Shown: one piece after another, positions 3,554 through 17,500 of the stretch
How positions within the stretch are numbered: the stretch's first letter is position 1
Layout of the letters: each line of letters starts with the position of its first letter
Assembly: GCF_004793765.1 (NCBI RefSeq)
Contig: NZ_SRYM01000007.1
Span: 1 to 64,000 of the forward strand
Direction: 5' to 3'
Length of the DNA: 64,000 nt
DNA from: Parabacteroides distasonis
GTDB taxonomy: Bacteria > Bacteroidota > Bacteroidia > Bacteroidales > Tannerellaceae
Translations under genes and position numbers: made by a program
The notes under the pieces: model-generated
Seen by the model: the letters and a program-made list of their open reading frames with translations, nothing else
Told to the model about the DNA's origin: nothing
The model's database searches: none

Positions 3554-4687
3554 TTAAACGCCTCCCAATTCCTTTTTTAGCCACACTTTCATCACCGGAT
3601 CTGGAATGATGACCTTGCGTTTCTCTATTTCAATCAACTCTTTTTTAACTAATGCCCTCTTTACGATACTGACATTTGCCGATGAGCCAAGTTTATATTT
3701 CTGTAGAATCTCTTGCGTGGTAAACTCGCTATGTACTCCATCTAGGATGGCGCGTAAAAAATTCATTTGATAAGTCGTCAGACTTTCGGTCTGTTTCTCG
3801 AATAGCGGAGTGTTTTGATCGATGATATCCTGATATGCCTCCTCAAAGTTCTGCTCCGTAGCGACCTTATCTGTATGAATCCATACCAACCATGCTAATT
3901 GCTGCACATAGGATGAATGATTGTCTACCCTTTGGCATATTTTTTCAGCCAGTTCTTTTGAAATCTGCTTACCTGTAGCCTCAAAACGACCACATATATA
4001 ATTGATCCAATCAGAAGTCCCGATTTTTGGCAGATAAATAGCATCGCCGAATTTATAAAAGGGAAGACTCTTTTTTTCAAATAGTTCATTCATCAAATGC
4101 TTCTTGCTACCGAACAAGCAATAAGACACCGACTTTTGTAATTGCCACACGGAACGTAATCGCTTTTGGAATGTCTTCGAATCCTTAAATTCGGCAATCT
4201 GTTGAAATTCATCGATACATACGACAATATTATATCCCTTCTTTTGCGCTATTTTTTCGGGAAGTTGTAATATCTCATCAACATCATTACTTTGAGGATT
4301 CATCTCAAGTGATATGGAAAAATCTGTCATGGGATCGGTGCCTATGGATATTTTAGGGCTGATACGTGAGAGGAATAGCTTGGTATTCTCCAGCCATTCA
4401 TCTAACTTTGAGGAAGTTTGTTTGAGAATGGCTGCAGCGAACGCATCATAAAAATCCCTGTCGCTACGGCATGAGAATATATCAAGATACACGACTTTCA
4501 ATTTGTCGGATTGCGCCAAGTGACATGCTTTCTGCACTAAAGAAGTCTTGCCCCAACGACGAGGTGAAATCAGTACCGTATTTACACCATGCTGAAAGTT
4601 CAACAATAGACGCTCTGTCTCTTTCTCGCGATCGGTAAAATTATCGCCCGATGTCGCGACTCCGAATATAAAAGGCTTATTCTCCAT
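3554..4687 (-). CDS. ATPase_2 (archaeal-type) family ATP-binding protein
   Basis: This is a 377-residue P-loop ATPase of the ATPase_2/AAA-like group common in Bacteroidales. The nucleotide-binding loop is the atypical SPRRWGKTS (residues 41-49), typical of this family, and the Walker B segment is VVCIDEF (about 155-161). The C-terminal third resembles a winged helix, which could bind DNA. Members occur near mobile or surface genes but have no settled function. It is monocistronic, convergent with the surface-protein gene, with a TATCTTTG-type -7 box upstream at 4712-4719 on the minus strand. The start ATG fits the family N-terminus (IFGVATSGDNFTDRE). The family call is sound; the biological role is unknown. 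Confidence 0.85.
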   Translation of the reverse strand: MENKPFIFGVATSGDNFTDREKETERLLLNFQHGVNTVLISPRRWGKTSLVQKACHLAQSDKLKVVYLDIFSCRSDRDFYDAFAAAILKQTSSKLDEWLENTKLFLSRISPKISIGTDPMTDFSISLEMNPQSNDVDEILQLPEKIAQKKGYNIVVCIDEFQQIAEFKDSKTFQKRLRSVWQLQKSVSYCLFGSKKHLMNELFEKKSLPFYKFGDAIYLPKIGTSDWINYICGRFEATGKQISKELAEKICQRVDNHSSYVQQLAWLVWIHTDKVATEQNFEEAYQDIIDQNTPLFEKQTESLTTYQMNFLRAILDGVHSEFTTQEILQKYKLGSSANVSIVKRALVKKELIEIEKRKVIIPDPVMKVWLKKELGGV

Positions 4688-13320: not shown

Positions 13321-13522
13321 AATTGTAAGTACTATTTGAAGCCGCACGGTTCGGAACTTTTACATTCAAAGTTCGGAACTCAAGTTAAAAAATACGTTTA
13401 CGGATTCTGTTTGGTGCTTGCGGTGTGGTACCTGATTTCCGGCGCTTTTGCAGAACTAACCTTATTCCGTTTTTGTTTTATTACCAGAAAGATGAATTGA
13501 TAAGATAAAAAATAGAGGAGTT

Positions 13523-13958
13523 ATGTCAGCATTTTACAAATTTCTTTTTCCAATGAAGCCGGATGGTATAGCTATATCGTTGCTGTTGTTGGCGCTTCGT
13601 TTGTTATTCGGTGGGTTTGCTTTCGCATGGAATACGGAAGTGGACGAATTTTGAGAGCATGTCTGCCGCATTGCCGGACCCACTGGGAGTTGGGCATTCT
13701 GTTTCGCTCGGTTTGGCCATTTTTTGGGAGTTTTTTGTTCGATTGGCTTTATTTTTGGTGTGTTCTATCGGTTGGCAATGATCCCGATGATTTTTGCCAT
13801 GGGAATGGCTTTCTTCGTGATTCACGGGAATGACCCGTTTTCTTTGAAAGAGTTGGCATTCGTTTACTTGGTCGTTTTTATCTTAATATATAGTAAGACC
13901 TGGTAAGTTCTCGTTAGATTGTCTGATCACCGTTTTTGTCACTTGGTTAGTGAAGTAG
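13523..13958 (+). pseudogene. DoxX-family membrane protein, multiply frameshifted
   Basis: It starts at ATG 13523 (MSAFYKFLFPMKPDGIAI...LLLALRLLFGG), then shifts near 13615 and stops at 13652. The next frame reads LLSHGIRKWTNFESMSA and ALPDPLGVGHSVSLGLAIF. A second shift near T-runs at 13716-13738 moves to CSIGFIFGVFYRLAMIPMIF and HGNDPFSLKELAFVYL. A third shift near 13892 restores RPGKFSLDCLITVF. Joined, these give a full four-helix DoxX protein of about 140 residues. DoxX proteins are small inner-membrane proteins of poorly defined redox-related role. The gene is clearly dead, unless the three shifts are sequencing errors. Confidence 0.82.
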
Positions 13959-13985
13959 GACTCTTTTTTATTCTGTATTATAATG

Positions 13986-14261
13986 CAATATGTTTAATAA
14001 AGTTCCCCCAGGACTACGTATTTTTAGGTTGCGTTTTCTCAAAAGTGTGTCCATTTGTAAGAACTAAAACAGCTATATTCATTAACCTTGTCATCCTTAA
14101 CTGACTACAAAGAGATCTGTAACAGCCAAACCACACAATTTTCGTGTGCTTACCTTGATCTCCAGCAATGAACGTGAAAAAAAATTGTGTATTTTTGTGA
14201 CGTAATAACAAGAATGGTTACAAAAACACGTAGTCCTGGGGGAACTTTATTAAATATATTG
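13986..14261. promoter_or_regulatory. Invertible promoter segment flanked by long inverted repeats
   Basis: A 27-bp sequence (13993-14019, core GTTCCCCCAGGACTACGT) recurs as its exact reverse complement at 14228-14254. With two mismatches the arms extend to 40 bp (13986-14025 and 14222-14261). The 208 bp between them hold no gene. A TATTTTTG box (14190-14197) on the plus strand fits the Bacteroidetes -7 element and points at the glycosyltransferase whose ATG is 6 bp beyond the right arm. This is the architecture of the phase-variable capsule promoters of Bacteroidales, which serine or tyrosine recombinases flip. As written the box faces the gene, the presumed ON state. No matching upstream TTTG is seen and no recombinase is encoded nearby. 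Confidence 0.8.
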
Positions 14262-14266
14262 TAATA

Positions 14267-15481
14267 ATGAGAGTGCTTATTATTAGTAATTGGTTTTATC
14301 CAAATAACGTAATAGCGGCGTTTCGAATAGAAGCTTTCGCTAAATACTTTCAGTTGGCAGGACATTCGGTTACGGTAGTGACAGAGGGAGAAGTTGACGA
14401 GACTAAATTATGGCATGGTTGTGAGATTAATTATGTCAAGAATCCTTTGATTACAGATTCTTATATGGCCCGTTGTGTAAAAGCGGGAAAGAGGTGGGTG
14501 CCGAGACGAATTGTGAATGGTTTGTTGTGTCGTATTACTGCTGATAGTAAGTTTATGTGGCGTTTTAAAGCTTATAACAAAGCAGCTTCATTGTGTGAGT
14601 CAAACTCTTTTGATGTGGTCTTAAGCTCATTTGGTCCATTGGCTCCTCACATGATCGCATTTAGATTGCGAAGAAACGGGTACAGGTTTTATTGGATAGC
14701 TGATATGCGTGACGAGATGTCAAAGCATATTTATATACCCCGTAATCAGGCTAGGCTTCTTATAGCCTATGAGCGTAAGATCGTGAATTCATCGAATTTG
14801 GTATTATCGGTATCCCAACCTTTGCTTAGCGATTTTAAATGTTATTGTAATCATGATCATTTCTTGGAGATCAAGAATGGTTATGATTATGAAGAGATAC
14901 ACGATGTTCGTTTCCAATCTCAATTTACCATGGCATTTATCGGTCGCTTTTACGGAGGGGCAAGTCCCGATAATTGGTTTAAGGCTTTCTCTGAACTTAT
15001 AAATGAAGAAAAGTTACCTTCAGATTGTCAGATAAAAATCATTGGAAATCTTTTGAAACTGGATGTTCCCGAGGATATCGTTCCTAATGTCTTGCAGATA
15101 GAATCCGTGGCTCATTCAGAAGCCATTCAGATGTCGTTGGATGTGGATACGCTTGTCGTGATTCATTCTACAGGAAGAAAAGGAGTGTATACGGGCAAAC
15201 TGTTTGATTATCTTGCTACTAATAAACCGATATTGGCACTTTGTGATCCCGAAGATGTAGTAGGTCGGTTACTGAATGAGACTAAAGCTGGTTTTACGGT
15301 GGACAATGCTGATATTGAGGGTATAAAGAAAATGATACTGCGATGTTATTCTATCTGGAAAAACAAGGAGGTATTGCCACGCGATTGGGAAAAGATTCGT
15401 CGATATACACGGAAGAATCAATGTAAGATACTTCTTGATTATCTTGCTAATGAAGCAGGAATATATAATGTCTCTGATTGA
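14267..15481 (+). CDS. Glycosyltransferase family 4-like protein under an invertible promoter
   Basis: A 404-residue GT-B fold glycosyltransferase. The N-terminal Rossmann half begins MRVLIISNWFYPNN, and the acceptor-side segments DVVLSSFGPLAPH and WIADMRDEM follow. The C-terminal donor half contains FIGRFYGG, IIGN, and the GKLFDYLATNKPIL motif common in GT4 enzymes that build exopolysaccharide or O-antigen. It should act at the cytoplasmic face of the inner membrane. It stands alone between the invertible segment and a convergent flippase gene, so switching would affect one sugar-transfer step rather than a whole capsule locus. Donor sugar and acceptor cannot be read from the sequence. Confidence 0.88.
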   Translation: MRVLIISNWFYPNNVIAAFRIEAFAKYFQLAGHSVTVVTEGEVDETKLWHGCEINYVKNPLITDSYMARCVKAGKRWVPRRIVNGLLCRITADSKFMWRFKAYNKAASLCESNSFDVVLSSFGPLAPHMIAFRLRRNGYRFYWIADMRDEMSKHIYIPRNQARLLIAYERKIVNSSNLVLSVSQPLLSDFKCYCNHDHFLEIKNGYDYEEIHDVRFQSQFTMAFIGRFYGGASPDNWFKAFSELINEEKLPSDCQIKIIGNLLKLDVPEDIVPNVLQIESVAHSEAIQMSLDVDTLVVIHSTGRKGVYTGKLFDYLATNKPILALCDPEDVVGRLLNETKAGFTVDNADIEGIKKMILRCYSIWKNKEVLPRDWEKIRRYTRKNQCKILLDYLANEAGIYNVSD

Positions 15482-15505
15482 TAAATATTTATCGATAGAT
15501 GTTTA

Positions 15506-17011
15506 TCAGAATTGTTCTTTTTTCTTGGTTCTTGATATTATCGGTTTTAATATCTTTTGATAATTAATACCCAATAAATTGGAAATGAATATGTAAAGCG
15601 GAAGATATATGCCGAATTCAAGAGCCAAAAGAGTATAAATATGTGTCATGTTTATTGAAGAAATAGCTATTTTTGTTGCGATACATGAGAAGATGGCAGC
15701 GAATAGCATTTTGAGCGTCTTTACCCAAGGCATGAATTTAACGATTGTAGTTTCTAGCGAACGGGCTATAATTAGGATAAGAATTATTAAGCAAAAAAGA
15801 GTGCTGAAGGTAGTAATAATTGCGATACCTATCGTGGAAGGGAAAAAGTTTACACACAATAGATTTAAGCTGACAAGCAGTATTGCGGTGATCAAATGTG
15901 TGTCAGAAAATGCTTTGCTTTTTCCCAGTGCTAGCATGATAGGAGAATAAGGGACGATGCGTATTAAATTAATAATGGTAGCGATTCTGAATAAAGTTAT
16001 CGATTGCAGGTATTTTTCTCCATATAAGAGGTTTATGATCTCTTCTGCGAAAATGAAACAAAATATTGATAATGGGTAAATAATTGCTGAGGATTTGTAG
16101 GTTACGGATTTCCATAACTTTATAAATTCATGCTTGTTGATACCGTGGTTCGACATCTTTGAGAATTCCGGAAGCAGGATAGTCGCTGTAGCGCTAATGA
16201 GCATTCCTGCAAATGGTAATTCGCGGTATCCGTTGCTAAATGCAGCGAAGTCTTTTACCCCGAAATATCTGCTTATGAAAAACAGGCTGGCGGAACTGAT
16301 TATAAAGCCATATAGATTAGCGGAGGATATAGGTTTTATAAATCTAAATATTTCATTCATAGGTATTTGAGACTTTCTTGGCTTAACGCCTCTGAACGGT
16401 ATGGTAATTAATATAAGCCCGGTTAGGCAAGTGATAATAGCTGATATGACAAAGCCTATAATGGCGCTAGATGCGTTGGCGTTTATAAGTATAATGGGTA
16501 GTATGGTACATACAATCATAAATGTACGGCTGATGGCAACATATATAATTACGATTCTTGACATACCATATACTGTAAGAATACTCTCTACCCCCATAAC
16601 TGGCATTAGTAACATGGGAGTTATTGAGAAATACATAAGGTTGTAAGTTAGCGACGGATTTTTTAATAAATCCGCTATTTGATAAGCGCCAAACAGTAAA
16701 ATACAAGAAACGATAGCAGATATTCCAAGGAATAGCAAGTTTAATCTTTTTATAATATTTAAACCTTCCTCTATTGGGACACGAGCAAGGAAATAGGAAT
16801 AAGCTTTGGGCAATCCAAGGGAAAAGACAATAAGTAAAATCGAATAAACATAAATAACTTGGCGGTATGTACCATATTCATTTTGTGGCATAAGATGACT
16901 GAATACTATGGATGTTATTAATCCGGTACTATGTGATATTAAGTTCGCCAACATCAGCAATAGAACTTGAATAGTACGATTATCGCATTTTTTCAACATC
17001 TTAGATTGCAT
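15506..17011 (-). CDS. Wzx-type oligosaccharide flippase
   Basis: A 501-residue polytopic membrane protein of the polysaccharide-transport (MATE/MOP) superfamily with about 12-14 hydrophobic helices. Family-like features are the N-terminal segment with Tyr-Gly-Thr-Tyr-Arg near residue 45 and a basic C-terminus. It should flip lipid-linked glycans across the inner membrane. It runs toward the glycosyltransferase and ends 24 bp from it, so the pair probably belongs to one surface-glycan function although transcribed separately. No initiating glycosyltransferase or polymerase is nearby, so the locus looks like a remnant or satellite. Start chosen at ATG 17011; Met5 is also possible. Confidence 0.88.
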   Translation of the reverse strand: MQSKMLKKCDNRTIQVLLLMLANLISHSTGLITSIVFSHLMPQNEYGTYRQVIYVYSILLIVFSLGLPKAYSYFLARVPIEEGLNIIKRLNLLFLGISAIVSCILLFGAYQIADLLKNPSLTYNLMYFSITPMLLMPVMGVESILTVYGMSRIVIIYVAISRTFMIVCTILPIILINANASSAIIGFVISAIITCLTGLILITIPFRGVKPRKSQIPMNEIFRFIKPISSANLYGFIISSASLFFISRYFGVKDFAAFSNGYRELPFAGMLISATATILLPEFSKMSNHGINKHEFIKLWKSVTYKSSAIIYPLSIFCFIFAEEIINLLYGEKYLQSITLFRIATIINLIRIVPYSPIMLALGKSKAFSDTHLITAILLVSLNLLCVNFFPSTIGIAIITTFSTLFCLIILILIIARSLETTIVKFMPWVKTLKMLFAAIFSCIATKIAISSINMTHIYTLLALEFGIYLPLYIFISNLLGINYQKILKPIISRTKKKEQF

Positions 17012-17098
17012 TAGATACTGATAATTTTACAATGAATTTTGTAAGTTAGCTACATAATAATATATTGTGGAAAAGTCTTCAAGAGAAGTTAGGTTTCG

Positions 17099-17173
17099 TG
17101 GGCGTTGACGGATTCGAACCGCCGACCCTCTGCTTGTAAGGCAGATGCTCTGAACCAGCTGAGCTAAACGCCC
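17099..17173 (-). tRNA. tRNA-Val (anticodon TAC), array copy 4 in transcription order
   Basis: Acceptor GGGCGTT/AACGCCC with discriminator A, anticodon stem TCTGC/GCAGA around loop CTTACAA (TAC, reads GTA). It is the promoter-distal member of four identical copies with a 109-bp period. Confidence 0.96.
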
Positions 17174-17207
17174 GAAATTCTTTCGGTAAAAAGAATAAAT
17201 TTAAAAG

Positions 17208-17282
17208 TGGGCGTTGACGGATTCGAACCGCCGACCCTCTGCTTGTAAGGCAGATGCTCTGAACCAGCTGAGCTAAACGCCC
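17208..17282 (-). tRNA. tRNA-Val (anticodon TAC), array copy 3
   Basis: Identical to the other copies, including the 34-bp spacer that contains AAATTCTTTCGG. The identical spacers show amplification of the gene together with its spacer. Confidence 0.96.
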
Positions 17283-17316
17283 GAAATTCTTTCGGTAAAA
17301 AGAATAAATTTAAAAG

Positions 17317-17391
17317 TGGGCGTTGACGGATTCGAACCGCCGACCCTCTGCTTGTAAGGCAGATGCTCTGAACCAGCTGAGCTAAACGCCC
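17317..17391 (-). tRNA. tRNA-Val (anticodon TAC), array copy 2
   Basis: Same cloverleaf and flanks as its neighbours, with a 109-bp repeat period. It is probably processed from one polycistronic transcript. Confidence 0.96.
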
Positions 17392-17425
17392 GAAATTCTT
17401 TCGGTAAAAAGAATAAATTTAAAAG

Positions 17426-17500
17426 TGGGCGTTGACGGATTCGAACCGCCGACCCTCTGCTTGTAAGGCAGATGCTCTGAACCAGCTGAGCTAAACGCCC
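17426..17500 (-). tRNA. tRNA-Val (anticodon TAC), array copy 1
   Basis: Promoter-proximal copy. Its 5' flank (17501 onward) differs from the inter-gene spacer and holds the array promoter at 17546-17576. Confidence 0.96.

Follow-up and report, generated by a model that had tools for sequence, protein, structure and literature searches.

A putative invertible promoter with importer-class recombination sites precedes a lone glycosyltransferase gene in Parabacteroides distasonis

Promoter inversion by site-specific recombinases is known from Bacteroides fragilis, where, according to PMC4747536, the serine recombinase Mpi acts on capsule operons and inverts 13 regions. By the same source, Tsr0667 inverts a further nine regions besides three clusters of SusC/SusD genes, so that targets other than SusC genes are already known for its class, and Tsr19 inverts local as well as distant promoters. 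The source describes a B. fragilis system in which a tyrosine recombinase flips promoters of polysaccharide genes near and far. Glycosyltransferase genes are likewise switched on and off in Salmonella, whose phase-variable O-antigen glycosyltransferase operons are under epigenetic control (Dam/OxyR; PMC11868660) without DNA inversion. Here we describe a locus of Parabacteroides distasonis that is probably a switch of an established type acting on an unusual target. Our literature search, which mainly covered papers outside subscription, found no description of a lone glycosyltransferase under a SusC-type invertase.

The locus lies in a stretch of 64,000 nucleotides (hereafter the window; assembly GCF_004793765.1, contig NZ_SRYM01000007.1, positions 1 to 64,000). 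An initial annotation had reported perfect inverted repeats of 27 bp (40 bp with two mismatches) around 208 bp, and these coordinates were confirmed exactly (Table 1). The two mismatches fall on arm positions 7 and 35, and a repeat search lengthens the arm pair to 45 nt at 91% (13981-14025 / 14222-14266). To judge the repeat against chance, the window was resampled 20 times with a first-order Markov model and searched for inverted repeats within 1500 bp. Fourteen of the 20 resamplings held no inverted repeat scoring 14 or more and the best among the other six scored 15, as compared to 34 for the window repeat, which thus far exceeds chance. The segment had no match at E ≤ 0.001 in a DNA search of 58 relatives (in some genomes over the best 12 candidates scored), and the 19-base core had none in IMG/VR.

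Table 1 Features of the putative switch and its surroundings (window positions).
Feature	Position	Strand	Remarks
Left arm of inverted repeat	13986-14025		40 bp; perfect run 13993-14019
Right arm of inverted repeat	14222-14261		perfect run 14228-14254
Left core site AGTTCCCCCAGGACT	14001-14015	+	fits AGTYYYN4GDACT; then ACGT
Right core site, AGTTCCCCCAGGACT inverted	14232-14246	-	identical word to left core
Segment between cores	14016-14231		216 bp; predicted to invert
TATTTTTG, then T	14190-14197	+	matches Bacteroidales -7 box TAnnTTTGY; faces the glycosyltransferase gene
GT4-like glycosyltransferase	14267-15481	+	404 aa; ATG at 14267; predicted target, ON orientation
Wzx-like flippase (Polysacc_synt_3)	15506-17011	-	convergent with the glycosyltransferase gene, 24 nt gap
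Stretch without counterpart in G016	13929-17097		blastn, tblastn; contains switch, glycosyltransferase and flippase

The promoter consensus of the Bacteroidales consists of TTTG at -33 and TANNTTTGY at -7, as given in PMC8748976. The -7 box that the initial annotation had placed facing the gene was found again as the sole TAnnTTTG of the segment when both strands were scanned, and TATTTTTGT fits the -7 consensus. No TTTG stands at the -33 position upstream of TATTTTTG, which counts for little, since a TTTG 18-22 nt upstream accompanies only 4 of 23 boxes of the site class described below. Of 28 segments of this class, 22 carry an outward-facing TAnnTTTG box no more than 100 nt from one end, against 4.4 expected from resampling; the set comprised seven segments of this genome, one of the relative G016 and 20 from the relatives G018, G014 and G023, with two long segments of this genome excluded. 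The six segments lacking such a box were L137, L140, L141, L143, L145 and C85b, the last of which contains no box whatever. In the two long segments, C113 and the second on C100, the ends are free of boxes for 100 nt and boxes lie farther in. The window segment itself contains another inverted repeat, an imperfect one (14128-14142 / 14181-14195; 15 nt, 87%), which sits immediately upstream of the box and is possibly an operator.

The glycosyltransferase reached 25.8 bits against Glyco_transf_4, under the 28.5-bit cut-off (Pfam), and matched no NCBIfam model, while phmmer against the PDB gave a single meaningless match (E 0.13). A relative with 57-58% identity, which exceeds the Glyco_transf_4 cut-off, is encoded in a metagenome-assembled genome of an uncultured Tidjanibacter (L044). 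There, it neighbours a CDP-glycerol-type glycerophosphotransferase, an epimerase and an IspD-like enzyme at a locus without such an inverted repeat. Among 147 genomes searched at E ≤ 1e-20, the protein matched only itself within the genus, and ten further matches (24-28%) all came from other families. We found no relatives in IMG/VR and three distant matches (26-29%) in PLSDB. Relatives of the flippase showed 31-35% identity at most.

Downstream of the glycosyltransferase gene lie the convergent flippase gene and tRNA-Val genes, and the next gene on the forward strand is purB, in line with the proposal of the initial annotation that an invertible-promoter arrangement precedes a single glycosyltransferase. 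In place of the stretch that lacks a counterpart, G016 has 137 bp. Searching the purB locus of six relatives by tblastn revealed neither the glycosyltransferase nor the flippase; five of these loci span the insertion place (G016, G001, G012, G013 and G018), and that of G025 ends at a contig end. Judging from these comparisons, we take the glycosyltransferase and flippase genes to be a horizontally acquired insertion beside the tRNA-Val array. This array (17098-17500), which directly borders the insertion, is a tandem of four identical units of 109 bp, each with a tRNA-Val (tac) gene. On the other side, a doxX-like gene (~13520-13909) matches relatives in more than one reading frame and is thus probably frameshifted here.

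With the anatomy at hand, we turn to the class of the site. The core AGTTCCCCCAGGACT fits AGTYYYN4GDACT, which we take to be the motif of the sites on which Tsr0667, a tyrosine invertase of B. fragilis, acts, although a literature search for this string found no paper. The motif has 44 exact matches in the genome as compared to 97 for a reversed control, so that the motif alone is uninformative and the signal lies in the pairing. Nine inverted pairs of sites with matching core words are present in the genome. Both arms are exact in seven of them (C33, two on C85, C91, C101, C113 and the window on C155), and one arm is one mismatch off in the two further pairs, both on C100, where the motif match at C100:50028 had a partner and yielded the ninth region. 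The core word is the same on both sides of a region and differs between regions, and a rough chance expectation amounts to 0.0004 such pairs within 2 kb. The nine regions are a lower bound, with most isolated motif matches and the three-mismatch matches at C103 and C136 outside the count. For the single motif matches at C97, C102, C144 and C169, the surrounding stretches contained no partner, the match on C169 being close to the end of a 6.4-kb contig.

At each of the eight other paired regions, Pfam identifies a gene with the SusC domains CarbopepD_reg_2 and Plug; the window region alone stands at a glycosyltransferase gene. At C113, the site lies less than 130 bp into the longest reading frame. 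The C113 segment and the second C100 segment are long (1.9 and 1.4 kb) and enclose reading frames of 411 and 289 aa, respectively, and are therefore no simple promoter segments. In the window region, where both arms fit the motif exactly, the arms are also better conserved than in any other of the nine (a perfect run of 27 bp versus 14-21), and their length suggests that the window switch is a young element.

Sites of this class also occur in relatives, from which we examined 20 pairs chosen among the matches listed (ten from G018, six from G014 and four from G023). A SusC gene lay at the site in 13 of them as judged by phmmer, and the remaining seven adjoined ECF sigma factors (two), FimA-type or DUF4469 proteins (three), a beta-helix protein (one) and genes with no Pfam family (one). 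No glycosyltransferase was found among the flanking genes classified, which were a part of those at the 20 sites. One further region, in G016, lies between genes for a HAD hydrolase and a PGI-like protein. Elsewhere in G016 (L103; C1:1898000-1916000), an inverted site pair at 4141 / 14559 is 10.4 kb apart and encloses two SusC genes, each then followed by a further frame taken for SusD, an arrangement that looks as though two complete importer operons could exchange positions.

One region of the class was observed in two orientations. When the C101 region is compared to G016, the 300 bp outside each site are identical (300/300) and longer flanks agree at 98.9-99.1%, and the interior of 536 bp matches at 536/536 only when inverted. 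The C101 segment is thus inverted between the two genomes. Unique sequence beside each core places the crossover inside a 17-bp repeat, which points to site-specific recombination rather than to homologous exchange between the SusC genes on either side. The orientation of the C100 region is equal in both genomes, and the C113 interiors are too divergent for a call.

The most likely candidate for the enzyme acting on the window site is a tyrosine recombinase of 415 aa encoded outside the window (G000:C101:29695-30942), as suggested by its neighbourhood and its co-occurrence with the sites. Its gene is close to the C101 region described above, a SusC/SusD shufflon of the AGTYYYN4GDACT class whose sites are 5 kb away. 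The R, K, H-R, H and Y of the tyrosine-recombinase site, which we presume to be catalytic, are invariant in six aligned orthologues. Of 59 genomes, 25 have a match at E ≤ 1e-40, and these 25 belong to the same genus; some of the matches are incomplete, and three are interrupted by a single stop codon. Genomes with an orthologue (25) hold a median of 2.14 matches per Mb to a stricter motif, versus 0.23 in ten genomes without (p 4e-4, uncorrected for ancestry). Exceptions occur in both directions: in G004, with 18 motif matches, no orthologue was detected among the 30 candidates scored out of 36, and the orthologue is present in G006, G024 and G029 with 0, 1 and 1 motif matches. At the recombinase loci of six relatives, a site lies ~5-7 kb from the gene, five of these (G012, G032, G018, G022 and G005) having been chosen for a nearby site and only G016 not. 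The site near the recombinase gene of G018 has no partner in the stretch examined, and in G014 the nearest site among the matches listed is ~35 kb from the gene.

The initial annotation had likened the locus to the phase-variable capsule promoters of the Bacteroidales, with the reservation that the site may belong to another recombinase family. The reservation is supported by a core that fits the tyrosine-invertase motif and by a site class common to eight SusC-type regions; the kinship with capsule promoters is not supported. What the locus does share with the Mpi capsule promoters of B. fragilis is promoter inversion, here predicted, with a box towards a glycan gene. In contrast to that system, with its serine recombinase and capsule operons (PMC4747536), the site here fits a tyrosine-invertase motif and is shared with SusC regions, and a capsule operon (UpxY with successive glycan genes) is absent downstream. 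We therefore rejected a kinship to Mpi on site class and downstream gene. A different repeat, GCTACTTGGGAAGTAGC or a variant of it, lies beside ~310-aa tyrosine recombinases at five loci (C106, C87, C120, the end of C33 and C89; L062, L063, L064, L066 and L067). These loci constitute a second inversion family, and we infer that they are capsule loci; the three neighbouring genes tested had no Pfam family. A third family is represented on C93 (L068, 9162-10689), where a 319-aa tyrosine recombinase precedes a 466-bp segment bounded by inverted repeats of 53 bp, after which comes a DUF3575 gene.

The locus stands closer to the Tsr0667 regulon of B. fragilis, with a core that fits the motif ascribed to it, class sites at SusC/SusD genes, a shufflon with SusC genes face to face (L077, L080) and a tyrosine recombinase as the likely enzyme. 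It differs by its target, a lone glycosyltransferase, and the likeness is one of site and context. As for the system described in PMC4747536 in which a tyrosine recombinase flips polysaccharide promoters, its target is a three-gene exopolysaccharide operon adjoining the enzyme, unlike the gene here.

Taken together, we consider it likely that the locus is a promoter-inversion switch flipped by the C101 enzyme, which would act in trans on sites of the importer class. A tyrosine recombinase would pair the two core sites, exchange strands and flip the intervening 216 bp. The present orientation has the box facing the glycosyltransferase gene, which would be ON; inversion would turn the box towards the doxX remnant, leaving the gene OFF. 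The regions served by the enzyme would number nine or more, eight of which adjoin SusC-type importer genes. As the glycosyltransferase appears to have come as an insertion together with the flippase, a step in surface-sugar synthesis would stand under an importer-type instead of a capsule-type switch.

An invertible promoter flipped by another enzyme, such as a tyrosine recombinase of the ~310-aa type, the integrase of a mobile element or a serine invertase like Mpi, is in our judgement unlikely. The genome offers many candidates, with 49 Phage_integrase and 4 Resolvase matches, and G004 has sites and no detected orthologue of the C101 enzyme. The ~310-aa enzymes, however, adjoin a different repeat of their own at six loci (the five above and C93). 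No paired class site was present in the 20-kb stretches surrounding the four serine recombinases on C90, C118, C166 and C99, although linkage is not required and a master enzyme may be unlinked. The 313-aa recombinase on C109, which adjoins a NusG-like gene and an AcrB-type operon, was set aside, as the 20 kb around it contain no paired class site either.

The absence of the segment from relatives would also suit a fossil switch, with true class sites locked ON and an enzyme that no longer acts there. The two intact and identical cores, the best-conserved arms of the nine regions and a candidate enzyme with an open frame and its catalytic residues argue against it, and we regard it as very unlikely. 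Still more improbable are readings in which the arms are no recombination sites at all, but terminal repeats of a small non-autonomous mobile element or a feature of a long-stem RNA. Arms of 40 bp around a short non-coding core do give a MITE-like outline, and the second imperfect repeat inside the segment would fit as well. Yet the segment is single copy in the genome, on which ground a multi-copy element was rejected, the arms have their core motif in common with eight other paired regions, and by eye there is no clear target-site duplication.

Returning to the promoter-inversion switch, the ON promoter is aimed into the convergent flippase gene 24 nt beyond the glycosyltransferase gene, and we found no terminator-like site at the junction of the two, so that inversion could affect both genes. 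This raises the rather doubtful idea that a master invertase of importers has captured a foreign glycosyltransferase module as a two-way switch, in which inversion raises the glycosyltransferase and lowers the flippase. If so, the flippase would be lowered via antisense RNA or transcriptional interference, and one enzyme would randomise both the choice of importer and a surface-sugar step.

A lone glycosyltransferase under the site class that varies SusC/SusD would couple variation in glycans to variation in importers within one clone, and this would be likely to affect recognition by phages and antibodies. The locus also illustrates how a newly arrived gene can come under an existing inversion system, and the one enzyme and nine regions named here form a set that can be tested at the bench.
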